A DNA stretch of 64,000 nt, taken from positions 1 to 64,000 of the forward strand of contig CANAPP010000008.1 of NCBI GenBank assembly GCA_947363565.1. The letters are read 5' to 3'. The translations under genes were made by a program, and so were the position numbers. Source of the stretch: an uncultured Lachnospiraceae bacterium (GTDB lineage: Bacteria; Bacillota; Clostridia; Lachnospirales; Lachnospiraceae). A model generated the notes under the pieces. The model had not been told where the DNA came from. It did not search any database and saw only the letters and a list, made by a program, of their open reading frames with translations. Numbering within the stretch: position 1 is the first letter of the stretch; every line of letters starts with the position of its first letter. Positions 42,383-59,287 of the stretch are shown here, piece after piece.

Positions 42383-43108
42383 ATGAAACTGCGTTCAAAA
42401 ATTCTTGTCATGTGTCTGGGCAGCATTCTGTTTGCGCTTATCCTGCAGACTATATTATTTCAGGAGACTTCATCAAAGCTTATTTACCGCCAGGCGAAGG
42501 AAGAGAGCGAAAATTCTCTGCAGAACATGCAGAATGAGCTCTATGCTTTTGTGAAAAATATTGAGAATAACCTTATAGAAATCTATACAGAGAGTTCCTT
42601 TATCAAGGAATTAAGGCAGGAAAAGGATATTGATATCTTAAGGGCTGAATTTTACCGGAAGGCATATGACATCGCGGTCAGCAAGTTTGAGTCGGCGGAC
42701 AGCGTGGTTTCCCTCTATCTGTATACGACGGACCACGAGATTATCAGTACGTACCGCAGAGCCGTGACGCCCCGGCATAATTACCAGACAGATATCTACG
42801 CGGATAAGGAACAGGAGAATGCGGGCACAGTTATGGATTATGTGGAGTCTGACGAGACGGCGATGCTGATCTCCAGTTATTTTAATCCCCACAGAGGAAA
42901 GGATATCATCCGGTTCGTCCTAAAGCTCTACGGCAACAGCAATCCCAGAGATAAGATTGGCTATATTGTCTGTGACGTGGACAGCAAAGCATTTGTCTCC
43001 ATCATGGAAAAGTACCGGACAGACAATACGATGTATATCTGGCTGCAGCCGGAGCGGGACCGGCCGGTAGTTTCCCTGGGGGAGACAACCGATAAGGAAA
43101 AGTCATGA
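42383..43108 (+). pseudogene. N-terminal sensor fragment of a YesM-type histidine kinase (locus 1)
   Basis: This 241-residue frame encodes the first transmembrane segment (about residues 7-26) and most of the extracytoplasmic double-Cache-like sensor domain (to about residue 235). It then stops at TGA 43106. An intact YesM-type kinase, such as the 620-residue one at 53268, continues with a second transmembrane segment, HAMP and the His-containing domain. All of these are missing. The catalytic end appears in another frame at 43105. The simplest reading is an out-of-frame internal deletion of roughly 700 bp near 43080-43110. Confidence 0.82.
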
Positions 43109-43509
43109 GCGTCCGTATGCAGGATCATGTGAATTACATCTACGAGATAGATGAAAGGACGCTGCAGGATAAGATTCCGAGGATTTCCTTACAGCCTATT
43201 GTGGAAAATGCACTGAACCACGGCTTGAGGAATAAGCGGGGAGATAAGGAGATTAAGATAAAAACCGAGGCGGAGGAAGGGCTTTTAAAGATCTGCATCG
43301 CAGATAACGGGGTAGGCATGGAGGCGGACGAGCTGAATGAGAGGTTAAGGAGGAATGACCTTTCCTATATTGAGGAAGGCAATTCCATAGGCCTTTACAA
43401 TATCAATGCCCGTTTGAAGATGCTTTACGGGGAGAGCTACGGCCTTTCTGTGGAAAGCCGGTTAGGAGAAGGAACCAGTATACGGATGACATTACCAAGG
43501 GAACAGTGA
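43105..43509 (+). pseudogene. C-terminal ATPase fragment of the same YesM-type kinase (locus 1)
   Basis: This 134-residue frame holds the end of the YesM-type catalytic region: RMQDHVNYIYEIDE, the N-box IVENALNHG and the G-boxes NGVGMEADEL and SIGLYNINARLKMLYG. The phospho-accepting His region (INPHFLYNTL in the locus 2 kinase) is absent. Its ATG overlaps the TGA of the upstream fragment (ATGA), so both pieces could be translated in tandem, but autophosphorylation on the normal His is impossible. The response regulator starts 7 nt downstream and is intact. Confidence 0.82.
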
Positions 43510-43516
43510 GAAAGAG

Positions 43517-45115
43517 ATGGATAAGAAAAAGTATACGATTTTAATTGCAGATGACGAATATTGGACGAGGGAAAAGCTCCGGCATATGATACGCTGGGAG
43601 GAATATATGCTGGAATTTTTGGAACCGGCGGCGGACGGAGAGGATGCACTGCGTAAGATAGAAGAAAACCGGCCGGATATTCTGATCACAGATATAAATA
43701 TGCCTTTTGTCGGCGGGGTGGATCTTTTGCAGACCGTGCAGAAACGTTATCCGGATATCGTCACCTTTGTCATCAGCGGTTACGATGATTTTGACTATGT
43801 AAAGGGAACATTTATGTCGGGAGCCATCAATTACCTGATCAAGCCGATTGCAAAAATCGATCTGGTCAATGCAGTCACGAAAGCCCTGGAGATCATCGCG
43901 GAGCATGAGAGCGAGCGGCTTGAGCTTTTGAAGGCGGCATCGGTCATGCAGGACCGGGAGTTCAGCCAGATCCTGCAGCAGAATGAAACGCTGATCATGC
44001 CGTCTGCGCCGGAAGGAGGTTTTCCAGAGTTTACCAGCATGAGCCTTATGCTTGTAAAAATACATAATTTCCCGAAGATTGTGCGGGCCAGGGGCGGCGA
44101 CATAGATTTGCTGGCCTATCGGATAAAAAAAGAGATGAAAAAAATATTCGGGAAGGAAGATATGATCGTGTTCAACTATATCTACCGGCTGAATGAATTT
44201 ATCGTCGTGACAGAAAAGCTTGGGAAGGAGCTCCTTGAGCTGGCGGAAAAGATAAAGGCAAGGTTGTCTGTAACGCTCCAATCCTGCGTCACGATCTGCG
44301 TCAGCGGCCATTCTTACTCCCTGGAAAATATCCATAGGGCGTATGTGGAGGCGGTAGGGCTTTTGATGACGCGGGGTTACGATAAAAAGGATGAAGTGCT
44401 CTCATCCCAGGGAGACAGCCACGGCGGCGACAAGGTGAAGTGCCATTTTACCCATGATCATGAGAAACAGCTAAAGAGCGCATTAAGGGCAGGGAAGATG
44501 GAGACGGTCAGGGAGATCATATTTGAAAAAGCAGGTCTTCGCTCCTGTGCAAAAAATCGATGGAGTTATCTGGAGGTAAAGCAGACAGTGCGCCAGATCC
44601 TGAATCTGATGCTGGATCATTCCGTGCAGAGCAAAGGCTATCTGAAAGCCGGGGATATGGAGAGTGTGGCGGAATCTGTGGAGAAGATTACGGAGAGCCT
44701 TGACGCAGCGGCTCTTTGCGAGGCGTTTGAGGAGATGATTGAATACTGCACGCCGGAGAGGAAGGAGACGGTGACGGACACGATGAGGGGTATCGTGCGT
44801 CAGGCGGCGGAATGGATTGACGGGCATTATTCTGAGGAGCTGTCCTTAGGCTCGCTGGCGGAGCAGTACCATGTAGAGAGTTCCTATTTTTCCAAAGTAT
44901 TCCGGCAGGAGATTGGAGAGAATCTAATCTTTTATATCACAAATAAACGGATTGAGAAGGCGAAAGAGTATGTGAAAAATACAGAAATGAATCTCGCCGA
45001 GGTAGCTTTTTTGGTGGGATACGATGATTATACCTATTTCAGCCGGGTGTTCAAGAAAAATACGGGAATGAGCCCAAGAGAATACCGGAGCTTTTGTGAG
45101 GAGGAGCTAAGTTGA
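43517..45115 (+). CDS. AraC-type response regulator YesN (locus 1)
   Basis: The 532-residue regulator has an N-terminal receiver (LIADDEYWTREKL, phospho-Asp in DILITDINMPFVGG, Lys in YLIKPIAKID), a long linker and a C-terminal AraC double helix-turn-helix (LGSLAEQYHVESSYFSKVFR and LAEVAFLVGYDDYTYFSRVF). Such regulators activate the adjacent sugar transporter operon. The upstream kinase is broken, so it may now be unphosphorylated or receive phosphate from another kinase. The next gene starts with TTG overlapping its stop. Confidence 0.92.
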   Translation: MDKKKYTILIADDEYWTREKLRHMIRWEEYMLEFLEPAADGEDALRKIEENRPDILITDINMPFVGGVDLLQTVQKRYPDIVTFVISGYDDFDYVKGTFMSGAINYLIKPIAKIDLVNAVTKALEIIAEHESERLELLKAASVMQDREFSQILQQNETLIMPSAPEGGFPEFTSMSLMLVKIHNFPKIVRARGGDIDLLAYRIKKEMKKIFGKEDMIVFNYIYRLNEFIVVTEKLGKELLELAEKIKARLSVTLQSCVTICVSGHSYSLENIHRAYVEAVGLLMTRGYDKKDEVLSSQGDSHGGDKVKCHFTHDHEKQLKSALRAGKMETVREIIFEKAGLRSCAKNRWSYLEVKQTVRQILNLMLDHSVQSKGYLKAGDMESVAESVEKITESLDAAALCEAFEEMIEYCTPERKETVTDTMRGIVRQAAEWIDGHYSEELSLGSLAEQYHVESSYFSKVFRQEIGENLIFYITNKRIEKAKEYVKNTEMNLAEVAFLVGYDDYTYFSRVFKKNTGMSPREYRSFCEEELS

Positions 45116-46437
45116 GAAGGATAAGACAAGTCTTGCTGGTGGCGGCTGCAGCCACAGCCCTTGCCGGCTGTACGTCCATACAGCCCCGGGAAAACGATGA
45201 GGAAAAAATCACCTTAAGCGTCCTGGCGGGGCAGTCCACATCGGACGCCGGGGTGGAGGATATGATTGATGAATGGATGGCGCAGCATTATCCGCAGGTG
45301 TCGCTGTCGTGGGAATGTGTGGACTGGGGAGACAAGTTCCACCAGCAGATGCAGGGGCGCTTTGCGGCAGGCGATGTGCCGGATATTATGATCGGAAAGG
45401 CACAGGATGTGCAGACGTACGCCAGGCTGGGGAATCTTGGCACCATCCCGGAGTGCTGCAGCCGGAAGACAGAAGACGAGGCGCGTAAGCTCGTAAGTGT
45501 CAACGACAAAGTGTACGGGATGCCCTACAACGCATGGTATCAGGGTGTGATTTACAATAAAAATCTGTTTAAAGCCTATGACCTGCATCCTCCAAAGACG
45601 ACGGAGGAGCTGCAGCATATTATCGCTGTCCTGGAGCAGAATCATATCGTGCCTTTTGCCTCCCACTATCAGGAGAGCTGGAAAGTGGCCAATATGACGA
45701 TGCAGTATATGATGAATGATATTTTTACGGATAATCCTGCCTGGGGCGATGATTTCAGGAGTGGAAAGAGTGATTTTGGCGGAAACGAAAAAGTGATCAA
45801 AAGCTATGAGAATAATCGGTTTATTCTGGAACATTCGTGGAAGGACGCACTCCAGATCGATCAGTTTGAAAGTGACGACCGTTTTACCCAGGGGGAGGCG
45901 GCTATGTATCTGACCGGCTCCTGGTCGATGCAGTTCGCGAACCAGTACGGGGATGATATTGACTTCGGCATATTTCCCTATCCCAATGAGGCCGGGGATG
46001 CAAAGCTGATCCGGGAAACGAACATGACGTTCATGAAAAGTGCGGATACCTCCCAGGAGGAGCTGATTGACGATATCTTTTTCTCCTTGCTTGAAGACCA
46101 GGAGCTTTTGCAGGAAATCTTAAGCTTTACCCAGTCCTCGTCGGTGGTGAAGGGAATTGAGCCGGTGTATAGGAATCGGATACAGGCGGATATTGACCGA
46201 TATGAAAAGGAGGGAAAGGTCATCGACGTGACTGTGGGAAATGCACAGCTTGTGTGGCGTTTTCAGAACATGATGGCGCAGCAGCAGTTACTTTGGATGA
46301 AAGGCGGGAAATCTCTTGATGAGATTCTCGCATACGCAGACCAGAACCGCCAGCTCAGCGGCTATGCCCTGGCGGAAGAGGCGGAGGTGCTTGCCGGCAG
46401 CGGATTAAAAAAAGGTTCCGGGGATAAGGAGGAATGA
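45112..46437 (+). CDS. Sugar-binding lipoprotein 1 of locus 1 (regulator-linked)
   Basis: The 441-residue extracellular solute-binding protein has a signal peptide with lipobox LAGC (Cys20) and the family-1 binding-protein fold. It is a paralogue of the transporter's own binding protein at 47170: both share LAGQST-DAG-EDMIDE, WECVDWG and PDIMIGKAQDV. The TTG start at 45112 overlaps the regulator stop by 4 nt, with GAGGAGCTAAG as ribosome site, so expression is tied to the regulatory genes rather than to the permeases. This suggests a sensing rather than a transport role, which is inference. Confidence 0.88.
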   Translation: MRRIRQVLLVAAAATALAGCTSIQPRENDEEKITLSVLAGQSTSDAGVEDMIDEWMAQHYPQVSLSWECVDWGDKFHQQMQGRFAAGDVPDIMIGKAQDVQTYARLGNLGTIPECCSRKTEDEARKLVSVNDKVYGMPYNAWYQGVIYNKNLFKAYDLHPPKTTEELQHIIAVLEQNHIVPFASHYQESWKVANMTMQYMMNDIFTDNPAWGDDFRSGKSDFGGNEKVIKSYENNRFILEHSWKDALQIDQFESDDRFTQGEAAMYLTGSWSMQFANQYGDDIDFGIFPYPNEAGDAKLIRETNMTFMKSADTSQEELIDDIFFSLLEDQELLQEILSFTQSSSVVKGIEPVYRNRIQADIDRYEKEGKVIDVTVGNAQLVWRFQNMMAQQQLLWMKGGKSLDEILAYADQNRQLSGYALAEEAEVLAGSGLKKGSGDKEE

Positions 46438-47087
46438 TGATGGCAGAAAGATTTTCCGGCATGGACAGCCCGGTGATGGGTGCGCTGAATAAATTTGTGA
46501 ATCTGGTGATACTTAACCTTTGCTTTTTGGTAAGCTGCATTCCCCTTGTGACGGCAGGGGCGGCGCTTACCGCTCTCTACAGCGTCAATCTTAAGATGGT
46601 GAAGGGTGAGGAAGGGTATGTGTTCAGAGGATACTGGAAGGAATTTGTGCAGAATTTCCGTCAGGGAACAGTCTGCTGGATGGCGATGGCAGGGGCGGGA
46701 ACAGTCTTTATTCTGGATATTAAGGCAGTCCGGGCATTTCACGGGGGGCTAAAAGGATTGTTTCTTACCAGTACCTTTGCAATAGGAATCATAATACTGG
46801 TAGTTTTTTTGTATGTGTTCCCCTATATGGCAAGATTCCGGGACAGCCTTTGGGTGTGCATGAAAAATTCCCTGATCATCGGCGGGAGCAGGATTGGCCA
46901 TACGATAGCGCTGTTTCTTATCACGGCGGCGGCAGCGGCAGTGACAGTCTGCACCCCCCGGATGACGGCGAAAATGCTTTTTTTCTGGCTGACGGCAGGA
47001 TTTGCACTGCTGAGTTATGTGAAGTCTTATTTTTTCAGGAATGTATTTGCCGAATTCGAAAATGTGAATGCAAAAAAGTACAAGTGA
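46434..47087 (+). CDS. DUF624 (YesL family) membrane protein
   Basis: The 217-residue protein has about five hydrophobic segments and the YesL-type start FSGMDSPVMGALNKFVNLVI followed by NLCFLVSCIPLVTAGAALTA. YesL proteins are regularly encoded beside YesM/YesN systems and CUT1 transporters, but their function is not established. The start overlaps the lipoprotein 1 stop (ATGATGATG; 46434, 46437 and 46440 all possible). It is the last gene before a new promoter. Confidence 0.85.
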   Translation: MMMAERFSGMDSPVMGALNKFVNLVILNLCFLVSCIPLVTAGAALTALYSVNLKMVKGEEGYVFRGYWKEFVQNFRQGTVCWMAMAGAGTVFILDIKAVRAFHGGLKGLFLTSTFAIGIIILVVFLYVFPYMARFRDSLWVCMKNSLIIGGSRIGHTIALFLITAAAAAVTVCTPRMTAKMLFFWLTAGFALLSYVKSYFFRNVFAEFENVNAKKYK

Positions 47088-47127
47088 AAAGTTCAAAACT
47101 GTCCTATTTGTAAAATTTTTTCTTCTC

Positions 47128-47133
47128 TATAAT
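47128..47133 (+). promoter_or_regulatory. -10 element of the locus 1 transporter promoter
   Basis: TATAAT lies 36 nt upstream of the binding-protein ATG. The -35 region (TATTTG) is poor, consistent with activation by the AraC-type regulator. Confidence 0.5.
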
Positions 47134-47169
47134 AGAATTATCAAATAAATCACGAGGAGGAAAAATAAC

Positions 47170-48456
47170 ATGAGAAAGCAGAAATTAGTCAGCCTCATGC
47201 TGGTAACGGCGATGACGGCATCACTGGCAGCAGGATGCGGTTCAACATCCGGCGGGGAGAAGAGCGAGGGAGGCGGCGGTTCCGATGAGAAGGTAACCCT
47301 TACCGTTCTTGCCGGACAGTCCACGACAGATGCCGGGATTGAGGACATGATCGACGAGGCGCTGGCGGAAAAATATCCGGAGATTACCCTGGAGTGGGAA
47401 TGCGTAGACTGGGGCAATGATTTCCAGCCGAAGATGCAGCAGTACATGCAGTCGGGATTGCCGGATATCATGATCGGGAAAGCGCAGGATGTAGCGACTT
47501 ACGCACCCCAGGGAGTGCTTGGGGAGATTAAGGGCGACTACCTTGACAGAGGATTGGACGCTGCGAGGGAGAACGTAACCTTTGACGGGAAAACTTACGG
47601 TCTTGTATATAACGCAATGTACCAGGGCGTTTATTACAACAAGAAGATGTTCAAGGACAATAACTGGGAGATTCCGAAGACCCAGGACGATTTAAAGAAG
47701 ATTATCGATGACTGCAAGGCAAAGAAGATTACACCTTTCGGCAGCCATATGGTAGATACATGGTCTATTGGAAATGTGACGATGCAGTTTATGATGAACG
47801 ATGTGTTCAACAAGGACGCGCAGTGGGGCGACAAGTTCCGCGACGGACAGACATCTTTCTCCGACAGCAAGGAGGCGCAGACTGCATACGAATACAACAA
47901 GCTGATCTTTGACAATACATTCCCGGAGACATTCTCTACAGAGCAGACAGACTGTGATGCGAAGATGGTGCAGGGTGAGGTTGCCATGAAGGTATCTGGT
48001 TCCTGGTCCATCCAGAACTTCCTTGACATCGATGAGAACTTTGAGTTCGGTATCTTCCCGTTCCCGAATCAGACAGGCGATTCCAAGCTGATCTTTGAGC
48101 CGAACATTACCGTGATGACAAGTGCAAAGACAGAGCATCAGGATGCGGTTGATAAAGTACTTGACCTTCTTACCAGCGATAAGGATCTGGCAGTGGAGAT
48201 TCTGGATTATACGAAGACAGCATCCATGCTTAAGGATGTGACACCGACTTTCCCGAATCCAAGCCAGGAGGATATTGATAAATATGCGGCGGAAGGAAAT
48301 ATCGTGGACGTAACGCTCGGCAACAACCAGTTAGTATGGGGCGGTTTCCAGGAGGAGAATGCGAAGGATATCGCGGCATGGCTCCAGGGAGACGAAAGCT
48401 TTGAGGAATGTCTTAAGGCATCGGACGACAGGGTAGATGCAAGCACCGCGAATTAA
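47170..48456 (+). CDS. Sugar ABC transporter substrate-binding lipoprotein 2 (locus 1)
   Basis: The 428-residue extracellular solute-binding protein has a signal peptide with lipobox LAAGC (Cys23) and a Gly/Ser/Glu-rich linker. It then has a family-1 sugar-binding fold. It binds sugar outside the membrane and delivers it to the permease pair downstream. The ligand is probably an alpha-galactoside, judged from the GH36 gene in the same operon. ATG 47170 follows CGAGGAGGAAAAA. A hairpin after the gene probably lowers read-through into the permeases. Confidence 0.92.
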   Translation: MRKQKLVSLMLVTAMTASLAAGCGSTSGGEKSEGGGGSDEKVTLTVLAGQSTTDAGIEDMIDEALAEKYPEITLEWECVDWGNDFQPKMQQYMQSGLPDIMIGKAQDVATYAPQGVLGEIKGDYLDRGLDAARENVTFDGKTYGLVYNAMYQGVYYNKKMFKDNNWEIPKTQDDLKKIIDDCKAKKITPFGSHMVDTWSIGNVTMQFMMNDVFNKDAQWGDKFRDGQTSFSDSKEAQTAYEYNKLIFDNTFPETFSTEQTDCDAKMVQGEVAMKVSGSWSIQNFLDIDENFEFGIFPFPNQTGDSKLIFEPNITVMTSAKTEHQDAVDKVLDLLTSDKDLAVEILDYTKTASMLKDVTPTFPNPSQEDIDKYAAEGNIVDVTLGNNQLVWGGFQEENAKDIAAWLQGDESFEECLKASDDRVDASTAN

Positions 48457-48522: not shown

Positions 48523-49413
48523 ATGAAAGCAAATAAAATAAATTATATGGAGCGGAGGATGTCAAGGCAGTATTTGGCACTGGTGCTGCCGGGGTTCATC
48601 ATTTTTACCATCGGCCTGATCATCCCGCTTTTTATGGCAGTGCGTTACTCGTTCACGAGCTGGGACGGCATGTCTCCGGAGAAAGTATTTGTCGGGTTCC
48701 AGAATTATGTGGAGCTGATGAAGGATTCTGATTTCCGGGATGCATGGTGGTTCACGCTGAAATTCACGATTGGAAATACCATTATCCAGAATGTGGTGGC
48801 ACTTCTTTTTGCCATAGCCTTAGACAGCGGGATAAAGGCGCAGAAGATCTACCGGACGATTCTTTTTGTCCCATGCCTGATAAGCGCTCTTGTGGTAGGT
48901 TTCGTGTGGCTTAAGATGTTTTCCAACGTACTCCCGGCGCTCAATGACTTTTTGGGGACGAATATTAATTTCCTCCTGTTCGGAGAGAAGAAGACCGTGC
49001 TTTCCGGACTGCTCATTGCCAATAACTGGCAGTGGATCGGTTACTGGATGTTAATCTACCTGGCTGGGCTGCAATCTGTTCCGTCAGACCTTTACGAGGC
49101 GGCGAAGGTAGACGGCGCCGGGGCGGTAAAGCGGTTTTTCAATGTTACAATCCCGATGCTTGCGCCGGCGATCACTATCTGCGTGGTAGGAATCACGACA
49201 GGTTCGCTGAAAGTATATGATTTGCTTGTATCCTCCACAAAAGGCGGCCCGGGAAGGGCATCAACATCCATGATCTACCAGACGTACACAACGGCGATTA
49301 ACGGCCGCCAGTATGGTTACGGCTGCGCGATGTCGGTAACGCTGGTCATCGTGCTCCTCCTGGTGGCGCTGGTGCAGGTAAAGGGGCTTAAGAGTAAGGA
49401 GGTGCAGGCATAG
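48523..49413 (+). CDS. CUT1 ABC sugar transporter permease, MalF-type (locus 1)
   Basis: The 296-residue permease has about six transmembrane segments and the ATPase-contacting EAA loop in YEAAKVDGAGAVKRFFNVTI. With the next gene it forms the membrane channel of a carbohydrate uptake system. ATG 48523 follows AAAGGATG. The second permease starts immediately after its stop. No ATPase gene is present in the locus. Confidence 0.93.
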   Translation: MKANKINYMERRMSRQYLALVLPGFIIFTIGLIIPLFMAVRYSFTSWDGMSPEKVFVGFQNYVELMKDSDFRDAWWFTLKFTIGNTIIQNVVALLFAIALDSGIKAQKIYRTILFVPCLISALVVGFVWLKMFSNVLPALNDFLGTNINFLLFGEKKTVLSGLLIANNWQWIGYWMLIYLAGLQSVPSDLYEAAKVDGAGAVKRFFNVTIPMLAPAITICVVGITTGSLKVYDLLVSSTKGGPGRASTSMIYQTYTTAINGRQYGYGCAMSVTLVIVLLLVALVQVKGLKSKEVQA

Positions 49414-50277
49414 ATGAAAAAGAAAAAAGAAAAACTGGAGGCTGAGGTACAGCAGTACACAAAAGGCTCAGTTATCGTACAGATTATCATGACCATTGCG
49501 GCGGCTTTGTTTATCGCTCCGATTTTTATTATCTTTAACTATTCCTTCAAGGGAAAGCGGGAGCTGTATCTGAATAATCCGCTGTCTTTGCCGGAGAAAC
49601 TGAATTTCGATAATTATATCGCGGCATATAAAAAGCTTGACCTGGCGACTACATTTACGAACACTTTTATCTATACGGCGATCAGCGTACTGATCCTGGC
49701 AATTCTGTGCGGGACTACCGCGTGGGCCATTGCCAGGTGCCGGAGAAAATTTTTCAAGTTCTGTTACATTTACTTTATCGTCGGAATCCTGATTCCGTAT
49801 CAGGCGTTGTTCCTCCCGATTTATATGATTGGGTACAGGATGCATATGACGAATACAAGATTCGGGATTATCTTTATGTATGTGGCGACGGGAATTTCTT
49901 TCGGGGTATTTTTGATGAACAGTTTTATGTCAACGGTGCCCTTAGAGCTTGAGGAGGCGGCGAGGATTGACGGATGCTCGGTCTTCCGTACTTATTTTTC
50001 CGTGGTGCTGCCGCTGTTAAAACCTGCGATGGCGACGCTGGTCATCATGCAGGCGTTCCAGATCTGGAATGATTATCTGCTGGCAAGCCTCTATGTGAGC
50101 AAAAAGCAGTTAAAGACTCTTACTGTTGCGATTCAGTCGCTGTTCTCGGCTCAGAGCAGTGATTATACGACGGCGATGGCGGCAATCGTAATATCCGTAC
50201 TGCCGATAGCGATTCTGTTTTTGAGCTTGCAGAAATATTTCATCAAAGGAATGACGGTGGGAGCCGTCAAAGGTTAG
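49414..50277 (+). CDS. CUT1 ABC sugar transporter permease, MalG-type (locus 1)
   Basis: The 287-residue permease has six predicted transmembrane segments and the EAA loop EEAARIDGCSVFRTYFSVVL. It ends in FIKGMTVGAVKG, the typical MalG-like C-terminus. ATG 49414 directly follows the stop of the upstream permease, so the two are coupled. The ATPase is probably a shared MsmX/UgpC-type protein encoded elsewhere. Confidence 0.93.
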   Translation: MKKKKEKLEAEVQQYTKGSVIVQIIMTIAAALFIAPIFIIFNYSFKGKRELYLNNPLSLPEKLNFDNYIAAYKKLDLATTFTNTFIYTAISVLILAILCGTTAWAIARCRRKFFKFCYIYFIVGILIPYQALFLPIYMIGYRMHMTNTRFGIIFMYVATGISFGVFLMNSFMSTVPLELEEAARIDGCSVFRTYFSVVLPLLKPAMATLVIMQAFQIWNDYLLASLYVSKKQLKTLTVAIQSLFSAQSSDYTTAMAAIVISVLPIAILFLSLQKYFIKGMTVGAVKG

Positions 50278-50307: not shown

Positions 50308-52413
50308 ATGGCAGTGCAGTTATTAAAACAATATCAGCTTGGAGATATGGCCGCTGTATATCTGACAGACGAGAAAAAGAAAAAGGTTGGTTTTATCCTA
50401 TTGCCGGCGGAGATGCCGTATGATGATTCGATGGTAAAAAATCAGGAGATTGATTCCCTGATCCAGATTAAAATTTCCGGGGATATCTACAATGAAGCTT
50501 ACGCCATGGGCAATTCCATGCGTAACAGCGAGACCATAAACCGGATGGAGTTTAAAGAGCAGAAGGCAGAAGAGCGGGAGGGAAAGCTTATCATCACAAC
50601 AGTTCTGGCCGCACAGGAACAGTACGAGACAGTACATACACTGACCTGGAAAAAAGATACGCCTTATGTGCGGATACGCTGTGCGGTAAGAAATACGGGA
50701 AAGAAAGTTTTTTCTCTGGAAATGTTTGAGAGCTTTTCGTTAAGTGCCATATCTCCTTACCTTGAAGGAGACGGATACAACAGTCTTTACCTTCACAGGC
50801 TCCGCAGTGTGTGGAGCCAGGAAGGACGGGCGGAGTGCATCCCTATCGAAGACCTGCAGCTTGAGCCGGCGTGGGATCCTCACGCGGTTCGGTGTGAGAA
50901 GTTCGGACAGACAGGTTCTATGCCGGTTAATAAGTTCTTTCCTTTTGCGGCGATAGAGGACAGGGAAAGCCAGGTGTTCTGGGGCGCGCAGATTGCCCAC
51001 AACGCGTCGTGGCAGATGGAAATCTACAGAAAAGATGATGGCTTATGTGTAAGCGGTGGGCTGGCAGACCGGGATTTCGGGCATTGGATGAAGACCGTGG
51101 AGCCGGGAGAGGAATTTTGCACACCGGAGGCAATCGTGAGCACAGGCCGTACGGATTCTTTGGATATTTTTACCGGGAGGCTCACAAAGGCAGCAGAGGA
51201 GAGCCTGGCGGACGCCCCGGAGACAGAAAAGAGCTTGCCCATTATTTTCAACGAGTACTGTACGACATGGGGCGATCCTTCCCACGAAAATATATGCAGG
51301 ATTTTGGATGTACTTAAGGGAAAGGGCTTTGGATACTTTGTCATTGACTGCGGATGGTATCGGCAGGAGGGAGTTCCGTGGGATATCAGTATGGGAGATT
51401 ATGAAGTATCCGATACACTGTTCCCGGAAGGACTGGAGGAGACGGTCCGGCAGATAAAGGCTGCGGGGCTGATTCCGGGAATCTGGTTTGAGATTGAGAC
51501 TGTCGGGAAGGCGGCAAAAGCATACAGCATGACAGAGTACCTGCTTAAGAAAGACGGGAAACCGCTTACCAGTTATTTCAGGCGTTTCTGGGATATGTGC
51601 GATCCGTGGGTGGAAGAATATCTGACAAAGAAAGTAATCGGCACACTGAAAAAATACGGATTCGGTTACATGAAGATTGATTATAATGAGACGATTGGAA
51701 TCGGCTGTGACGGCGCAGAATCTCTGGGCGAAGGACTTAGAAGGAATATGGAGGCATCCTCGGCATTTTTTGAGAAGGTGAAAAGAGAAATTCCGGGGAT
51801 TGTACTGGAAAACTGTTCTTCCGGAGGGCACAGGCTGGCGCCGGGTCTGATGGCACAGATGAGCATGGCATCATTTTCCGACGCACATGAATGCCCGGAG
51901 ATTCCGATTATCGCGGCCAATGTCCACCGGGCTGTCCATCCGGCGCAGAGCCAGATCTGGGCGGTAATCAGAAAAGAGGATTCTTTGAAGAGGATTGCTT
52001 ACTCTGTAGCCGCTACATTTCTCGGGCGGATGTGTATCTCCGGGGATGTGACGGAACTTGGCAGCGGGCAGTGGGAGATGATTGAGGAAGGGATGGCATT
52101 TTACCGGACAATCGTACCGGTAATCCGGAACGGGCAGTCTTACCGGTTCGGCCCGAAGGTGAAAAGCGCAAGACATCCGGAAGGGTGGCAGTGCCTGGTC
52201 CGCGTCGGCGCAAATGGAGAGGGATATGCGGTGGTGCATGTATTCGGCGGCGAAGTGCCATCGTGTATCAAAATACCGCTGCCCGAGGGATGCCCGGAGA
52301 GGATTCGGAGCGTATACCCAAAGCAGGCCGGACATCGGGTCTGTGTACAGGCCGGAAACCTTGAGGTCCGGCCCGGGGAAGACTTTGAGGCTTTAGCGGT
52401 GAAACTTTGGTAG
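50308..52413 (+). CDS. GH36 alpha-galactosidase
   Basis: The 701-residue glycoside hydrolase has an N-terminal beta domain and a central GH36 barrel: FVIDCGWY, the catalytic nucleophile Asp458 in GYMKIDYNE, CSSGGHRLAPG, and the acid/base Asp525 in SFSDAHECPE. There is no signal peptide, so it acts in the cytoplasm on imported substrate. Typical substrates are raffinose-family sugars or other alpha-1,6-galactosides. Single alpha-galactosyl residues on peptides are conceivable. ATG 50308 follows AAAGGAGAGAG. It is last in the locus 1 operon and has its own terminator. Confidence 0.9.
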   Translation: MAVQLLKQYQLGDMAAVYLTDEKKKKVGFILLPAEMPYDDSMVKNQEIDSLIQIKISGDIYNEAYAMGNSMRNSETINRMEFKEQKAEEREGKLIITTVLAAQEQYETVHTLTWKKDTPYVRIRCAVRNTGKKVFSLEMFESFSLSAISPYLEGDGYNSLYLHRLRSVWSQEGRAECIPIEDLQLEPAWDPHAVRCEKFGQTGSMPVNKFFPFAAIEDRESQVFWGAQIAHNASWQMEIYRKDDGLCVSGGLADRDFGHWMKTVEPGEEFCTPEAIVSTGRTDSLDIFTGRLTKAAEESLADAPETEKSLPIIFNEYCTTWGDPSHENICRILDVLKGKGFGYFVIDCGWYRQEGVPWDISMGDYEVSDTLFPEGLEETVRQIKAAGLIPGIWFEIETVGKAAKAYSMTEYLLKKDGKPLTSYFRRFWDMCDPWVEEYLTKKVIGTLKKYGFGYMKIDYNETIGIGCDGAESLGEGLRRNMEASSAFFEKVKREIPGIVLENCSSGGHRLAPGLMAQMSMASFSDAHECPEIPIIAANVHRAVHPAQSQIWAVIRKEDSLKRIAYSVAATFLGRMCISGDVTELGSGQWEMIEEGMAFYRTIVPVIRNGQSYRFGPKVKSARHPEGWQCLVRVGANGEGYAVVHVFGGEVPSCIKIPLPEGCPERIRSVYPKQAGHRVCVQAGNLEVRPGEDFEALAVKLW

Positions 52414-52731: not shown

Positions 52732-53271
52732 ATGGGAAACGGACAGAAAAATGCAGCAGTTGGCAACACGAAGGTCAGGGATAACGGGGCGAAATTGATT
52801 TTTGATGACCCGGTTTTGTGCGCGGAGTTTCTGCGGGGGTATGTGGATATCGACCTGTTGAATTTTGAGAACTTGAGCGAGAACACCCCTGAATACCTGC
52901 TGCGCGTAATCAGTAAGATTATCACAGTATTTCTCGCAAAATTAAATATTCCAAAGGAAGAGATTGGAGAATTTACCGGGAAGATTGAACGGAGGGAATT
53001 TACGATGTTGTTTGACAGTTTTGAGGCGTATGATGTGCAGGAGACGAGACGGGTCAGCAGAGCGGAAGGAAAGGCAGAGGGAAAAGCAGAAGGGGAAAAA
53101 TATCATTTAGTAAAACAAATCTGCCGGAAGATGAAAAAGGATATGGCGGCAGAGGAGATAGCAGAGCAGTTGGAAGAGGATGTGGATGAAGTGCAGCGGA
53201 TATATGATATCGCGCTCCGCTATGCGCCGGATTTTGATGTTGACAGGATAACGGAAGAAGTTTTGAGATGA
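52732..53271 (+). CDS. Rpn/transposase-like protein remnant lacking its nuclease core
   Basis: The 179-residue protein has ends typical of the Rpn-type (PD-(D/E)XK) family common in Lachnospiraceae. The N-terminal part is KLIFDDPVLCAEFLRGYVDIDLL. The C-terminal part has FDSFEAYDVQETRR and a low-complexity EGKAEGKAEGEK stretch followed by a helical tail. The catalytic core that should lie between them (about residues 50-60) is missing, but the frame is open. It is probably inactive. Its stop overlaps the kinase start by 4 nt (ATGA), so this remnant now leads the two-component operon. Family assignment is from memory of the motif pattern. Confidence 0.6.
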   Translation: MGNGQKNAAVGNTKVRDNGAKLIFDDPVLCAEFLRGYVDIDLLNFENLSENTPEYLLRVISKIITVFLAKLNIPKEEIGEFTGKIERREFTMLFDSFEAYDVQETRRVSRAEGKAEGKAEGEKYHLVKQICRKMKKDMAAEEIAEQLEEDVDEVQRIYDIALRYAPDFDVDRITEEVLR

Positions 53272-55130
53272 TGCGTGCTGGACAAGGGAGTCGTACACAG
53301 AACAAAGGATTCCTGCAATGGTTTGCGGACCAGAAAGTAGGAAAGAAGATTATGTATACGTTCATTGTGACATCAGTCATTCCTCTGCTGCTTTCACAGG
53401 TTCTGATGCTGTATGTAATTTCCAATAACATGAAGGAAAAGGTGGATGACCTTATGGTAAACCAGCTTGTGCAGATTTCAGAGCGGACAGGCCTGACGGT
53501 TGACGTGTATACGAACCTGGTTTATCAGATTTACTCGGATGATGAGATTATTGAATATATGGCAGATTGCCAGAATGCGTCTTCCGAAATACGGGCGCGC
53601 GCATACAGGGAGATTTGCGGGAAACTGCAGCAGTACGGGCTGACCGCCGGCGGGATTGAGTGCATCAGCATCATATTGGAGGACGGCCAGGATATTACTT
53701 ACGATTTTGGGATGGCATCTGCGGTGGACAACCTGTGGGAAGGGTATGCGGACAAGAAAAGCATCGTGCCCTACAAACTGGCGCAGAAGGAATCTGCGAA
53801 TCTGGCTGTCTCGCCCACGCAGCGAGTTCAGAGGGGAGGGGAAGAAGAGCGGATCTTCCATATCTCCAAGCAGATGTATGATTTTTCGGATATACAGAAA
53901 GGCACGGTCGGCACGGTGGTCATGAGTATCAATGAGTCGGTGCTGAATGCCGTGTGCAGCGGGGCGCAGGATGGCGGCGAATTGTACACGATCAATTTTA
54001 TCATGGATAAGGACGGCAATATCCTGACTTATCCGGGCTCCTTTTATTCCGGTATCGCACTGTCCGAAGGCAGGACGGTGAAAGAATTTGTGGAAAAGAC
54101 GGGAGTGCTTGACGGGAAAAAGATTGCCGTTAACCAATATGAGAATGAGGATTTGGGATGGTATTTCTACAATGCGTATGATGAGGATTATATCCTGCGG
54201 GATGTCAGGCATATCCAATATCTGACCATTGCCATAGGCATCCTGCTGCTTATGGTGTCTGTTTTTCTGATTCGTTATACCGTTCTGCTTATAGAGAACT
54301 CTACGCGCAGCATAGTCGCGGGCATCATGGAAGTGCAGAAGGGGAACTTGGATGTGCAGGTTCATGTGGAGAGCAGAGATGAGATGGGGCAGATTGCCGG
54401 GAACTTCAATACGATGACAGGAAAGGTACAGGATCTGATCGAGGAAGTACAGGAAGTGACAGTCAAGCAGAAGGAGGCGGAGATACGTGCGCTGGAGGCG
54501 CAGATCAATCCCCATTTCCTGTATAATACTTTGGATTCGATCAACTGGATGGCGATTGAGAAGGAAGAATATGAAATCAGCCGGATGGTAAGGAACTTAG
54601 GAGTGATCTTGCGGTACAGCGTGGATAAAAGCAATAAGATGGCGACGGTGGCAGAGATGGCTGACTGGCTGGAGAAATATGTAAGCCTCCAGCGTATGCG
54701 GTTTAACGATGCATTTACCTGTGAGATTCATGTGCAGCCGGGGACAGAAAAGCTGTACATCCATAAGCTCCTGCTCCAGCCCTTTGTGGAAAATGCAATC
54801 CTTCATGGATTTAAGGAGATTGAGTACGGGGGAATCCTTCGGGTGGACGTGATGCTTTCAGAGTCCCGGGATGAGCTGGATATTATTATTGAGGATAACG
54901 GAAAAGGAATTCCCCGCCGGATAGCGGAGACATTTAACGACCCGGAAAGGGCGTGCCGGGATGACAAGTCAAGTATCGGCCTTCATAATGCATTTTCCAG
55001 AATGCGGATGTATTACGGAGACAGTGCGTCGTGGAATGTGAGCAGCATTCCGGAGGTTGGTACAGTCATTACGTTAAAGATTCCGGTCAGCGAAAAGGGA
55101 GGTGCTGGGGATGCGGATTGTGATTGTTGA
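53268..55130 (+). CDS. YesM-type sensor histidine kinase (locus 2, intact)
   Basis: The 620-residue membrane kinase has two transmembrane segments (about residues 25-48 and 305-330) flanking an extracytoplasmic double-Cache-like domain. A HAMP linker follows, then the His-kinase domain with phospho-His416 in INPHFLYNTLDSINW. The ATPase has N-box FVENAILHG and G-box NGKGIPRR with SSIGLHNAFSRMRMYYG. It phosphorylates the AraC-type regulator, whose gene overlaps its end by 20 nt. ATG 53268 or 53271 may be used. It serves as the template showing what the locus 1 kinase has lost. Confidence 0.93.
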   Translation: MMRAGQGSRTQNKGFLQWFADQKVGKKIMYTFIVTSVIPLLLSQVLMLYVISNNMKEKVDDLMVNQLVQISERTGLTVDVYTNLVYQIYSDDEIIEYMADCQNASSEIRARAYREICGKLQQYGLTAGGIECISIILEDGQDITYDFGMASAVDNLWEGYADKKSIVPYKLAQKESANLAVSPTQRVQRGGEEERIFHISKQMYDFSDIQKGTVGTVVMSINESVLNAVCSGAQDGGELYTINFIMDKDGNILTYPGSFYSGIALSEGRTVKEFVEKTGVLDGKKIAVNQYENEDLGWYFYNAYDEDYILRDVRHIQYLTIAIGILLLMVSVFLIRYTVLLIENSTRSIVAGIMEVQKGNLDVQVHVESRDEMGQIAGNFNTMTGKVQDLIEEVQEVTVKQKEAEIRALEAQINPHFLYNTLDSINWMAIEKEEYEISRMVRNLGVILRYSVDKSNKMATVAEMADWLEKYVSLQRMRFNDAFTCEIHVQPGTEKLYIHKLLLQPFVENAILHGFKEIEYGGILRVDVMLSESRDELDIIIEDNGKGIPRRIAETFNDPERACRDDKSSIGLHNAFSRMRMYYGDSASWNVSSIPEVGTVITLKIPVSEKGGAGDADCDC

Positions 55131-56634
55131 GGATGAGATTAAGATCAGAGAAGGGATTGCGAAAATGATTGAGTCGCAGACACAGCATGTGGTCCAGGGG
55201 AAAGCGGTGAACGGCGAAGAAGGTCTTGAGATGATCTTAAGATTCAAGCCGGAGCTGGTAATCACGGATGTCCGGATGCCGAAGATGGACGGTCTTGAGA
55301 TGGTGAAGGCTCTCCATGAGCGGAAAATCCCTTTGCATGTAGTAATCCTGAGCGGATATTCGGAATTTGAGTACGCCCAGAAGGCAATCAGGTACGATGT
55401 GGACGAGTATCTCCTGAAACCGCTGGACATAGACGATATCCGGAACATGCTCTGCAAGGTAGAAAAAAAGATCCAAAGAGAGCAGATGACAAGCGGAACG
55501 CCAGGGCTGCATCTTCGCAATCTCCTCACCGGAGAGGATGCGGATAAGGAGAAAAATTGTGATATTTTAAAAGATATCTGCGGCTTTCCGGCCGAGGGAG
55601 AGTACGAGCTTTTCGCAGGCTATATCGGGTCGGCGGAAGTATCCTATAGAGACGAGGTCGAGCGTGCCGCGGAAGAGCTTAGAAAGAAGTACCATGAACT
55701 TAAGATTTATTATATCTATGTGGAGAACAGGCAGAAAGGATATCTGCTTGTCTGCGGGGAACCGGGGGAAGGGAGATTTGCGGAGCTTGAGAGGTCTTTC
55801 TATAATAAACTGCTCCTGCAATACCGGGATAAGACGGAAAAGGCCGTCTGGACGAGAAAAAGATTCCGGCATCCAGAGGAGATTGCTGACACGGCAAAGG
55901 AACTTGACGGACTGCTTACCTATGCGCTGGTCCTTTCGCCAGAGGGGTGGCTGGATAGCGCACAGGCGGAAAAATACAGTCCGCAGCTTTTCTGCGCCCC
56001 GGTCTCCCTCTATAACAAGATGCGAAACGCCATCTGCCAGGACGACGCGCAGAAACTGAAGAAGGTAATGGAGGATTTCCTTGCATATATGGCAGAAGGC
56101 CATTTTGAGATTGGGGAGATACGGAAAGCATTTATCAAGAGCTATTATCTGATCAGCGATACCGTTCAGGAGATAGATAACGCCAGATACCAGCATCTTA
56201 AGGCGAAAAATCTCCTGAGGAATATTGAAGGAGCTGTCACCTGGCATGAGCTTAAAAACGCATACATGGATGTGTTCCAGGTGATTGCCGGGGCACAGGT
56301 AAAGCGCGAAGATATCAGCAACTATGTGATCAAGCGGGCGATCAACCATATCAGGGAGCACTATCAGGAAGGGCTTACGCAGGAAGAAGTGGCATCCGTC
56401 CTTGAGATTACCCCGGAGTATTTAAGTACGCTGTTTAACCGGGAGATGGGGATTAATTTTTCTGTATTTTTAAAGCAGTTCCGCATCAGCCATGCAAAAC
56501 GGATGCTGAAAGGAACGAATCTGAAAGTATATGAGATTGCAAATGCGGTCGGTTACAGTGATCCGAAGTATTTCCAGCGGGTGTTCAAGGAAGAGATCGG
56601 AGTGTCGCCCGGAGAGTACCGGCAGATGGGGTAG
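55111..56634 (+). CDS. AraC-type response regulator YesN (locus 2)
   Basis: The 507-residue regulator has a receiver domain (IVIVEDEIKIREGI, phospho-Asp in LVITDVRMPKMDG, Lys in YLLKPLDIDD), a central linker and a C-terminal AraC domain (TQEEVASVLEITPEYLSTLF and VYEIANAVGYSDPKYFQRVF). ATG 55111 follows GGGAGGTGCTGGGG; an in-frame GTG at 55102 is less likely. It should activate the transporter and GH127 operon downstream. Lipoprotein 1 starts 9 nt after its stop. Confidence 0.93.
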   Translation: MRIVIVEDEIKIREGIAKMIESQTQHVVQGKAVNGEEGLEMILRFKPELVITDVRMPKMDGLEMVKALHERKIPLHVVILSGYSEFEYAQKAIRYDVDEYLLKPLDIDDIRNMLCKVEKKIQREQMTSGTPGLHLRNLLTGEDADKEKNCDILKDICGFPAEGEYELFAGYIGSAEVSYRDEVERAAEELRKKYHELKIYYIYVENRQKGYLLVCGEPGEGRFAELERSFYNKLLLQYRDKTEKAVWTRKRFRHPEEIADTAKELDGLLTYALVLSPEGWLDSAQAEKYSPQLFCAPVSLYNKMRNAICQDDAQKLKKVMEDFLAYMAEGHFEIGEIRKAFIKSYYLISDTVQEIDNARYQHLKAKNLLRNIEGAVTWHELKNAYMDVFQVIAGAQVKREDISNYVIKRAINHIREHYQEGLTQEEVASVLEITPEYLSTLFNREMGINFSVFLKQFRISHAKRMLKGTNLKVYEIANAVGYSDPKYFQRVFKEEIGVSPGEYRQMG

Positions 56635-56643
56635 GAGGAGAGA

Positions 56644-57864
56644 ATGAACGGCTATATGAAAAAAATACTGTCTGCGGGGCTGCTTTTGTGCCTTTTGGGA
56701 TTCCAGGGCTGCGCGGCGGCAGAGGCGGACAGAGAGGAAGAAGAGGCAGAGACAAAAAAAGAGATCGTCCTCTGGACCTACTATGAGACTAACATGCAGA
56801 AGGCATCCATGGACGAGCTGGTGAGCGGGTTCAATGAATCCCAGGAGGAATACCATCTGACATGGGAATACCATGGTCCTGTCACGGAATTTAATAAGCG
56901 GCTGGCAATCGCCATCACCCAGAACCAGCTCCCGGATATGGTGATCCTGGACAATCCGGATATGGCAACCTATATCGAGATGGACAAGTTGGAGGATATC
57001 ACGGAGCATATAAAGGATATAGAAGAACTGGGGCAGTATTTTCCCAGTGCCATGAAGTCTGTGACAGCAGAGGACAGGTATTACGGATTGCCGTTTTGCT
57101 GCAACAATGTGGCGCTTATTTATAACAAGGACATACTTAAAGGGGCAGGAATCCATGTGCCCCAGACCTGGGAAGAGCTTAAGAGGGCGGCCAAAGAGCT
57201 CTCCGCCCCCGGAAGATATGGATTTGCCATGTCAGCGATTGACGGGGAACAGGGAGCGTTTCAGTTTGGGGCTTTTATGCTGTCGGCAGGAGACAGCCTT
57301 GAACAGGCAGGCGGGCGGGGAACGTTAAACGCGTTCCGGTTCATTAAGGATATGGTGGATAATGGCTGGATGTCCCGCGACTGCGTGAACTGGTCACAGA
57401 ACGATGTGGCTAGGACGTTTATCAATGGAGAGTGCGCCATGATGGAGAACGGGCCGTGGGTGTTCCCGGCGCTGGATGAATCGGGAGTCAACTATGGTGT
57501 GGCGGCATTTCCGGCAGGGAAGGAGCAGACAGGGCTGCTCGGCGGGGAGGACATCGCGGTGCTTAAAGGGAAGGATGTGAAGGGCAGCATCGCTTTCCTC
57601 AAATATTACAGCCAGACATCCACGATGCTGAACGCGAACCTGATGGCGAATTCGCTCCCGCCGAGACAGGATGTGGCAGAGCTTTCCTTAAAAGTCAATC
57701 CGGGCTACCGGGTCATCCTGTCTCAGATGGGAGACTGTATATCCAGGACTGACTGCGGCAGCTGGTCAGAGCTGTCCGCAAAACTTTCCGACGGGCAATA
57801 CCGCGTGATCACCGGCGAGAGCACGCCCGAGGAAGTATGTGAGGAGATAAAGAAGATAAAATAA
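56644..57864 (+). CDS. Sugar-binding lipoprotein 1 of locus 2 (regulator-linked)
   Basis: The 406-residue extracellular solute-binding protein has a signal peptide ending at a Cys in GFQGC (Cys23, or Cys19 if ATG 56656 is used) and an acidic linker. It is a paralogue of the transporter-linked protein at 58022; both share the YET/YFE-T segment, GFNESQ, LPD-VILD and IEMD. It is separated from that gene by a terminator and belongs to the kinase/regulator transcript. The same arrangement occurs in locus 1. A co-receptor role for the kinase is suggested but not shown. Confidence 0.88.
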   Translation: MNGYMKKILSAGLLLCLLGFQGCAAAEADREEEEAETKKEIVLWTYYETNMQKASMDELVSGFNESQEEYHLTWEYHGPVTEFNKRLAIAITQNQLPDMVILDNPDMATYIEMDKLEDITEHIKDIEELGQYFPSAMKSVTAEDRYYGLPFCCNNVALIYNKDILKGAGIHVPQTWEELKRAAKELSAPGRYGFAMSAIDGEQGAFQFGAFMLSAGDSLEQAGGRGTLNAFRFIKDMVDNGWMSRDCVNWSQNDVARTFINGECAMMENGPWVFPALDESGVNYGVAAFPAGKEQTGLLGGEDIAVLKGKDVKGSIAFLKYYSQTSTMLNANLMANSLPPRQDVAELSLKVNPGYRVILSQMGDCISRTDCGSWSELSAKLSDGQYRVITGESTPEEVCEEIKKIK

Positions 57865-57883
57865 GATAAGAAAATGAGGAAGA

Positions 57884-57935
57884 AAACAGGGTGGACAATT
57901 CAGTTGAAGAATGTCCACCCTGTTTAAATATTTAG
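57884..57935 (+). terminator. Terminator between locus 2 regulatory and transport operons
   Basis: AAACAGGGTGGACA (57884-57897) pairs perfectly with 57912-57925, followed by a weak T-rich stretch (TTTAAATATTT). Confidence 0.8.
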
Positions 57936-57960
57936 AGTACAAAGAATAATCATATTTTCC

Positions 57961-57966
57961 TATACT
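57961..57966 (+). promoter_or_regulatory. -10 element of the locus 2 transporter promoter
   Basis: TATACT lies 55 nt before the binding-protein ATG. No good -35 is present (TACAAA), as expected for an AraC-activated promoter. Confidence 0.45.
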
Positions 57967-58021
57967 TGATTTAACAAATAAAACAAGAAACAACAAATGA
58001 TTCAAGAAAGGCAGGAAAATT

Positions 58022-59287
58022 ATGAAAAAAAGAATGGTAAGCGTACTTTTATGCCTGGCCATGGCGGCAGGAATGATGGCAGGCTGCAGTGGCGGAGGTG
58101 ATTCCAAAGGTTCATCGGACAAAGAGGGCACAACTGGGGGAAAGGAATCCGTTGTGATCTGGGATTATTTTGAGACCGATGCCCAGAAGAACATGATGCA
58201 GGATATGATCGACGGATTTAACGAATCCCAGGATAAATATGAAGCCTCTCATGTGTATGTACCTTTTGCAGATTACGAGAAACAGCTGACTCTTGGCATG
58301 GCATCCGGGGAACTGCCGGATCTGGTTATCTTAGACGGCTGCGGTATGGCATCCTTCATCGAGATGGATCTGTTCGGAGATGTGTCGGCAGCAGATATTA
58401 AATGGGATGAATATATGGAAGGACCTATGTCCTCTACAATGGCTGACGGAAAGCACTACGGAATCCCGTTTGCAACCAACTGTACCGCATTGTTCTACAA
58501 TAAGGATATTTTCGACGCGGCAAAGATGGATTACCCGGATGAGAATACTACGTGGGAAGATTTCCGTGAGATGGCAAAGGCATTGACCAAAGACGGCGTT
58601 ACCGGATTTGGAAATGCGGCCACCGGCACAGACGAAGGTACGTTCCAGTGTCTGCAATGGTTATACACGGCGGGTGGAGATTATCAGAACATCAAGGGCG
58701 GAATGGACGCTTACAAGCTGATGCAGGAAATGGTGGCAGAGGGTTCATGGTCTAAGGACTGCGTGAACTGGACCCAGTCAGATGCCAATAACAACTTCGT
58801 CGCAGGGAACCTGGCGATGCAGCAGAACGGCCCGTGGCAGATTCCCGGAATCGAAAAAGATGCGCCGGAGCTGAACTATGGCGTGACTGTCCTTCCGAAG
58901 AAGGATGCGGATTCCGGACAGGCAACCTCCATCCTCGGCGGTGAGAATATGGGCGCGGTAAAGCAGGATAATATGGACGGCGCGATTGCTTTCATGGAGT
59001 ATTATGACCAGACAGATGTCATGATAGAGTGTATGAAACAGTACGGTTCTTTCCCTCCGAAGACAGAGGCAGCGCAGGATTCTTACTGGACGGACGACCC
59101 GATCCAGAAAGCATTTATCCAGCAGCTTGACACATCGATCCCGAGAGGGCCGAGCGCATCCTGGCCGGCATACTCAGACGCGATCCAGACAGGATTCCAG
59201 GAGGTAATGACTTCCGCAAAGACACCGGAAAAAGCGTCAGAGGATACACAGGCAGCAGTGGATAAAGTAAAAGCATCAGAAAAATAA
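58022..59287 (+). CDS. Sugar ABC transporter substrate-binding lipoprotein 2 (locus 2)
   Basis: The 421-residue extracellular solute-binding protein has a signal peptide with lipobox MMAGC (Cys22), a Gly/Ser-rich linker and the family-1 fold (FADYEKQLTLGMASGELPDL, YGIPFATNCTALFYNKD). It delivers sugar to the permease pair. The ligand is probably an arabino-oligosaccharide, from the co-encoded GH127 enzyme. ATG 58022 follows GAAAGGCAGG. A strong hairpin directly after the stop suggests higher expression of this protein than of the permeases. Confidence 0.92.
   Translation: MKKRMVSVLLCLAMAAGMMAGCSGGGDSKGSSDKEGTTGGKESVVIWDYFETDAQKNMMQDMIDGFNESQDKYEASHVYVPFADYEKQLTLGMASGELPDLVILDGCGMASFIEMDLFGDVSAADIKWDEYMEGPMSSTMADGKHYGIPFATNCTALFYNKDIFDAAKMDYPDENTTWEDFREMAKALTKDGVTGFGNAATGTDEGTFQCLQWLYTAGGDYQNIKGGMDAYKLMQEMVAEGSWSKDCVNWTQSDANNNFVAGNLAMQQNGPWQIPGIEKDAPELNYGVTVLPKKDADSGQATSILGGENMGAVKQDNMDGAIAFMEYYDQTDVMIECMKQYGSFPPKTEAAQDSYWTDDPIQKAFIQQLDTSIPRGPSASWPAYSDAIQTGFQEVMTSAKTPEKASEDTQAAVDKVKASEK

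Follow-up and report, generated by a model that had tools for sequence, protein, structure and literature searches.

Candidate three-component sugar sensors beside two importers in an uncultured Lachnospiraceae bacterium

Introduction

CuaD of Ruminiclostridium cellulolyticum is a family-1 binding lipoprotein that binds the ectodomain of the kinase CuaS, whereas the transport protein CuaA does not (PMC10384115, PMC5663094). The CuaS ectodomain alone shows no sugar binding, and CuaDSR controls a transporter that has its own binding protein (PMC10384115, PMC5663094). Two loci of an uncultured Lachnospiraceae bacterium resemble this system. Both lie in the window analyzed here, a 64,000-nucleotide (nt) stretch (positions 1 to 64,000, forward strand) of contig CANAPP010000008.1 from assembly GCA_947363565.1. 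In each locus, a response-regulator gene is followed by a binding-lipoprotein gene (SBP1a or SBP2a, together SBPa), and a paralogue (SBP1b or SBP2b, together SBPb) is encoded with the permeases of an ATP-binding cassette (ABC) importer. A three-component sugar sensor that controls the neighbouring importer is probably encoded in locus 2 and was probably once encoded in locus 1. The best reading is that both belong to the same known kind of sensor as CuaD-CuaS-CuaR, the closest known system.

Comparison with described systems

As in CuaDSR, a family-1 lipoprotein, a two-transmembrane kinase and a YesN/AraC regulator are encoded as one unit. The unit is complete in locus 2; in locus 1 the kinase is broken here and intact in 19 relatives. 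The kinases are of similar size (~600-630 amino acids, aa), and a separate transport binding protein is found with permeases and a glycoside-cleaving enzyme, as in CuaABC; SBP1b and SBP2b are each followed by two permease genes. The Cua system differs in its gene order (cuaD-cuaS-cuaR, with the binding protein gene first) and in its ligand, cellobiose. CuaA and CuaD are only 14% identical, so no local duplication is visible there.

NagB1/NagB2 of Paenibacillus sp. FPU-7 is also a homologous family-1 pair, with one gene beside a kinase and regulator and the other beside permeases, and with the same two tryptophans (Trp) (PMC8233162). This pair differs in that its members lie in two separate loci, its ligands are chitin oligosaccharides, and a signaling role is proposed only (PMC8233162).

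An earlier, sequence-only reading of this DNA had named XylFII-LytS as the precedent. This Clostridium beijerinckii system works in a similar way: the binding protein is the ligand subunit of a kinase that controls a sugar ABC importer, which has its own second binding protein (cited in PMC10384115, PMC9601137). The arabinose three-component system of Geobacillus stearothermophilus likewise has a dedicated sensing binding protein by the two-component system and a separate transport one (PMC10384115). None of the four lipoproteins has a match to Peripla_BP (XylF-type family) in Pfam, and no LytS structure is found by profile or among the best 50 fold matches of the locus 2 kinase (HK2) ectodomain. 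XylFII is of a monosaccharide-type binding-protein family, unlike SBP_bac_1/SBP_bac_8, and the Geobacillus system, AraPST, also uses a monosaccharide-type binding protein. XylFII-LytS is thus a distant precedent that works alike, and CuaDSR and NagB1/NagB2 are closer. What the present loci add to these systems is separate origins, a rate switch, and candidate operators.

Layout of the two loci

The features of locus 1 are listed below.

42278-42314, + strand: weaker copy of the locus 1 operator-like site, 105 nt 5' of the kinase gene (position weight matrix, PWM, 14.8-15.7)
42383-43108, + strand: 5' remnant of the locus 1 kinase, with transmembrane segment 1 (TM1) and dCache_1 (profile 2-180 of 240) and a frameshift stop at its end (Pfam; alignment with intact kinases)
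43105-43509, + strand: 3' remnant of the locus 1 kinase, HATPase_c only (Pfam; matches C-terminal parts of intact orthologues)
43517-45115, + strand: RR1, response regulator with receiver and AraC-type helix-turn-helix (HTH) domains (Pfam)
45112-46437, + strand: SBP1a, regulator-linked family-1 binding lipoprotein and putative sugar co-receptor, with lipobox LAGC and a TTG start (Pfam; tree; AlphaFold2)
46434-47087, + strand: DUF624/YesL (MusI-like) membrane protein on the sensor side of the operator (PF04854)
47072-47108, + strand: conserved operator-like site AAAAnnGTACAACTTnTTTTTTCnAnnnnGTCCTATT, 5' of TATAAT (leave-one-out PWM 30.9 bits)
47170-48456, + strand: SBP1b, transport copy of the binding lipoprotein (permeases next; orthologues 72-84% identical)
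48523-50277, + strand: ABC permeases of locus 1, two genes (order kept in relatives)
50308-52413, + strand: presumed GH36-type alpha-galactosidase (present in most orthologous loci with DNA downstream)

The features of locus 2 are as follows.

53268-55130, + strand: HK2, intact kinase with dCache, HAMP, His_kinase and HATPase (Pfam; ectodomain model)
55102-56634, + strand: RR2, response regulator with receiver and AraC-type HTH domains (Pfam)
56644-57864, + strand: SBP2a, regulator-linked family-1 binding lipoprotein and putative HK2 co-receptor (Pfam; tree clade 100)
57884-57925, + strand: terminator-like hairpin between SBP2a and SBP2b (RNA fold -25.7 kcal/mol, z -6.7)
57913-57937, + strand: conserved operator-like element TCCACCnnnTTTAAAATATTAGAA, covering the 3' arm of the hairpin (25.8 bits leave-one-out)
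58022-59287, + strand: SBP2b, transport copy of the binding lipoprotein (permeases next; orthologues 70-86% identical)
59295-61092, + strand: ABC permeases of locus 2, two genes (order kept in relatives)
61121-63052, + strand: presumed GH127-type beta-L-arabinofuranosidase (kept in orthologous loci)

The regulator-lipoprotein order described earlier is correct in both loci, as are its coordinates. SBP1a starts at 45112, within RR1, which ends at 45115 (4-nt overlap), and SBP2a starts at 56644, after the RR2 end at 56634 (9-nt gap). RR1 orthologues of comparable length are 40-57% identical. A two-component system had been assigned to each locus. This holds for locus 2, where HK2 has the YesM-type (HPK7) layout of dCache, HAMP, His_kinase (PF06580) and HATPase; the dCache domain is below the Pfam cut-off, but the model has a dCache fold. 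It does not hold for locus 1, where the kinase lacks TM2, HAMP and the His box. Locus 1 of this genome still has an intact RR1, SBP1a and operator.

We take the enzyme at 50308-52413 to be GH36 from general knowledge and homology to neighbours, rather than from a Pfam scan. The GH127 label at 61121-63052 is presumed on the same grounds; the GH127 Pfam model was run on related secreted enzymes only. The GH36-type neighbour suggests an alpha-galactoside ligand for locus 1, and the GH127-type neighbour suggests an arabinofuranosyl oligosaccharide for locus 2.

The DUF624/YesL gene, located between SBP1a and the operator, is in the same place in 4 of 20 related loci. A small open reading frame (ORF) at 52732-53271 overlaps the HK2 gene start by 4 nt and, by eye, resembles the C-terminal parts of Rpn/PD-(D/E)XK transposase-like proteins. 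A tRNA scan found no tRNA.

Paralogy and separate origin of the sensor copies

All four lipoproteins are SBP_bac_1/SBP_bac_8 proteins in Pfam, in a genome of 3.26 Mb (102 contigs) with 21 PF01547 matches. SBP1a is 43% identical to SBP1b over 416 aa (E 6e-126), and SBP2a is 35% identical to SBP2b over 376 aa (E 6e-81). Cross-locus pairs are only 20-23% identical. The paralogy proposed in the sequence-only reading is borne out by these values, and the motifs it had listed are present (LAGQST, WECVDWG and PDIMIGKAQDV in the locus 1 pair; GFNESQ and VILD in the locus 2 pair).

In a tree of 104 binding proteins, SBP1a (20 rows, support 99) is sister to SBP1b (16 rows, 99) with support of 100. SBP2a (11 rows, 100) is sister to SBP2b (7 rows, 100) with support of 97. 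One common origin of both sensor copies was rejected: placing them in a single clade costs 258 log units (p-value of the approximately unbiased test, p-AU, 6e-78). The tree therefore firmly indicates that the sensor copies of loci 1 and 2 arose separately. It had been proposed that they were made by local duplication in each locus. A grouping of the sensor copies across loci, named in that proposal as the outcome that would contradict it, does not occur. The tree argues firmly for this in locus 1. Local duplication is likely in locus 2, where the sister relation is favoured in the large tree and is absent yet not rejected in a smaller one (p-AU 0.34). On these trees both duplications are old and precede the divergence of the sampled genera. 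A recent duplication in this genome was rejected, as SBP1a is 60-66% identical to many orthologues versus 43% to SBP1b.

A single binding protein follows the kinase and regulator in related loci L106-L108, L111, L116, L118 and L119, which may resemble the ancestral state. Other loci (L122, L123, L126-L128 and L130-L132) contain binding protein-kinase-regulator modules with no permeases nearby. Their binding proteins form their own clade, a further sensor lineage.

Conservation and unlinking in relatives

A single GTDB genome scan with SBP1a found 20 loci. Almost all carry the label Lachnospiraceae, including Lactonifactor longoviformis, Robinsoniella peoriensis, [Clostridium] citroniae, Lachnotalea glycerini, Blautia schinkii and Faecalicatena contorta. 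The usual order is kinase-regulator-SBP1a-(YesL)-SBP1b-permease-permease, with GH36 where the contig reaches it; L012, L018, L020 and L021 are exceptions. A family-wide search gave ten SBP2a loci, and five of the ten have the order kinase-regulator-SBP2a-SBP2b-permease-permease-GH127. Searches of five congeners turned up neither of the two loci.

SBPa is directly 3' of the regulator in every relative with DNA upstream (19/19 for locus 1 and 10/10 for locus 2). This position persists where the importer is displaced. In L012 and L018, SBP1b is ~13 kb from SBP1a, which is still with the kinase and regulator. In L020, the two copies are parted by a 1653-aa secreted protein. L099, L100, L101 and L103 have no permeases beside the SBP2a module and instead have secreted multidomain GH127 enzymes (Pfam on L100, L101 and L103). 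L102 was left out of this count because its contig stops soon after SBP2a. L021 was left out of the transporter-free loci because its SBP1b and GH36 are fused by deletion. Since SBPa is kept with the kinase and regulator where the transporter is distant or not nearby, it belongs with the kinase rather than the importer.

The GH127 enzymes of L099, L100, L101 and L103 are large, secreted proteins with LamG and Ig-like domains. L021 is from a metagenome-assembled genome; at the fusion (8328-10868) the permeases are deleted and the start of SBP1b is joined in frame to GH36.

Evolutionary rates

The two copies evolve at different rates. Across 13 complete locus 1 loci, the mean pairwise distance is 0.486 for the kinase ectodomain, 0.473 for SBPa, 0.207 for SBPb and 0.20 for the permeases. 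Across six locus 2 loci, the values are 0.592, 0.553, 0.251 and 0.15-0.22, respectively. SBPa is thus ~2.2-2.3 times faster than SBPb, with a rate close to that of the kinase ectodomain, and the SBPb rate is close to that of the permeases. The SBPa distance exceeds the SBPb distance in all 78 locus 1 pairs and all 15 locus 2 pairs.

In the mirror-tree comparison, permease distance was always kept constant because the raw correlations are high for all genes. The partial Mantel correlation is 0.68 between SBPa and the ectodomain (0/2000 permutations). For SBPb and the ectodomain it is 0.31 (231/2000 permutations), with no clear correlation. In eight matched loci, 145 columns are invariant solely in SBP1b and 15 solely in SBP1a. 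The regulator-linked copies have 104 aligned columns that are invariant over eight distant loci. The rates and column constraint fit a loss of permease constraint and a rate shared with the kinase, a pattern that by itself does not prove contact.

The proposal that the regulator-linked lipoprotein is a kinase co-receptor is well supported by this comparison: its place after the regulator in all 29 relatives with DNA upstream, its ectodomain-like rate and its retention away from the transporter all point to such a role. There is an even chance that the change from importer binding protein to kinase antenna is a recurrent route. It would have at least two origins in one family, perhaps three with L122-L132, each with the same switch from a permease-like to a kinase-ectodomain-like rate. 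If so, matched sensor and transport pairs would be a natural experiment for mapping the kinase-docking surface.

Regulatory sites

The operator-like sites were derived from the alignments of this analysis. In both loci, a conserved site lies between the sensor and transport copies, together with TATAAT in locus 1 and a hairpin in locus 2.

The locus 1 site AAAAnnGTACAACTTnTTTTTTCnAnnnnGTCCTATT is 5' of SBP1b in 14 of 16 aligned loci, at fixed or near-fixed spacing, and is followed by TATAAT. A leave-one-out PWM scores 25-49 bits in 17 loci; the best score in 584 kb of unrelated loci is 11.6. The two genomes with a distant SBP1b, which were not used to build the matrix, also carry the site at that gene (24.3 and 37.4 bits). 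The promoter that had been proposed for the locus 1 transport copy fits this arrangement, as TATAAT and the conserved upstream element precede SBP1b. About half of the loci also have a weaker site ~100-200 nt 5' of the kinase gene; in the window it is at 42278. An exact match to the operator pattern is found at the known site only, and one site with two mismatches is at control level. A strong additional site (27.8 bits) is found 3' of GH36 at L015:14690, a hint of a further regulon gene.

The locus 2 site TCCACCnnnTTTAAAATATTAGAA is 5' of SBP2b and is common to six loci, scoring 22-27 bits in five transporter-bearing orthologues. In L099, a held-out site (20.6 bits) instead precedes the secreted GH127 gene. 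A terminator had been placed between the two locus 2 copies. The hairpin is real and may terminate transcription; the conserved part, however, is the operator-like element over its 3' arm, which is also conserved in orthologues without the long hairpin.

Structure models and ligand site

The AlphaFold2 model of SBP1a is a two-lobe binding protein (predicted local distance difference test, pLDDT, 88.4). Its best matches among solved structures are RafE, including raffinose complexes, and NagB1/NagB2. Trp213 and Trp292 of NagB1 stack on the sugar and are common to RafE (PMC8233162). They align with W190 and W271 of SBP1a, which are invariant in 27/27 sequences of sensor and transport copies. The HK2 ectodomain is modeled as a dCache fold (pLDDT 87.7) and best matches ligand-binding chemoreceptor domains. 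A profile search for a solved relative of this ectodomain by sequence gave chance-level matches only.

The locus 1 kinase deletion

Two ORFs remain of the locus 1 kinase gene, 42383-43108 with dCache only and 43105-43509 with HATPase only (Pfam). Alignment of nine orthologues with the window shows that ~211-213 residues are gone between the pieces, including TM2, HAMP and the His box (QINPHFLYNTL). Two flanking landmarks are 657-663 nt apart in three orthologues versus 23 nt in the window. This is a loss of ~634-640 nt (~0.64 kb), with a frameshift. Intact orthologues from relatives (n = 19) are 590-640 aa long. The PF06580 domain with the phospho-acceptor histidine is missing from both remnants, and the genome encodes three such domains: HK2, one on contig C28 and one on contig C40. 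The possibility that this genome has another copy of the kinase outside locus 1 was rejected, as these are the only PF06580 domains genome-wide.

Kinase function in locus 1 looks lost through deletion in this genome. Because both pieces are otherwise open and well conserved, the loss appears to be either recent or an assembly error. The broken kinase is a warning that, even where the layout is conserved, the system need not work in this genome.

Proposed mechanism and alternatives

In the proposed mechanism, membrane-anchored SBP1a or SBP2a would bind an oligosaccharide outside the cell. It would dock on the YesM-type kinase at its dCache ectodomain and alter kinase activity. The AraC-type regulator would then bind the conserved site 5' of the transport copy and turn on the binding protein, permeases and glycosidase. 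Alpha-galactosides would be the signal for locus 1 and beta-L-arabinofuranosyl oligosaccharides that for locus 2. The origins of the sensor copies are separate in the two loci and long predate the lineage of this genome; both copies would stem from transport-type binding proteins. Here, locus 2 is complete and locus 1 appears to be without kinase function.

Several points weigh against this mechanism. The faster evolution of SBPa could be relaxed constraint, and direct binding of small ligands by dCache domains is common. In a careful 46-row tree, SBP2a and SBP2b are sisters with weak support (84/20). In locus 1 of this genome, the mechanism could run only if the deletion were an assembly error or if another kinase served RR1. 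An assembly error, with the kinase intact in the living strain, is compatible with the mechanism and is somewhat unlikely. There is a single assembly of the source genome, in 102 contigs, and the remnants are otherwise open and conserved; the junction is clean, however, and the remainder of locus 1 is intact.

SBPa could also be a second transport binding protein that has another sugar specificity and uses the same permeases, with the kinase sensing through its own Cache domain. The shared family and fold, the two retained sugar-stacking Trp residues, and the chemoreceptor-like dCache fold agree with this. It is nonetheless unlikely, as SBPa stays by the regulator where no transporter adjoins and is without the constraint of the permease-linked copy. 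Moreover, a conserved operator lies between the copies, and SBPa is therefore probably outside the transport unit. Indirect action on the kinase, as a sink or through importer docking in the manner of Bce-type sensors, is plausible in that lipoprotein, kinase and importer would share the membrane and transporter-coupled sensing exists (BceRS, PMC11502775). The persistence of the module without an adjacent transporter makes it quite improbable, as does the binding of the CuaDSR kinase ectodomain to CuaD and not CuaA. Finally, SBPa could be decaying duplicates under relaxed selection with no function of their own, given their faster divergence than the transport copies and the broken locus 1 kinase. 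This is hard to credit: in many genera, almost every relative has an open SBPa gene, which always follows the regulator, and SBPa has a confident fold, the invariant columns and both Trp residues. It has also diverged as much as the kinase ectodomain, and the genes for the latter are intact.

Most YesM-type kinases have no known ligand. If the paralogue of an importer binding protein is the antenna, the neighbouring importer and glycosidase predict the signal, and many gut sensors become testable by sugar. The sensor and transport pairs illustrate a transport protein turning into a signaling subunit.

Other sugar loci in the genome

A third sugar locus in the same genome (L059, contig C28 8000-27000) encodes a regulator, a PF06580 kinase, a Peripla_BP_4 lipoprotein, an ABC ATPase, two permeases and an araA-like gene. 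It has a single binding protein. On contig C40 (L060), the third PF06580 kinase and its regulator are divergent to a family-1 binding protein and two permeases.

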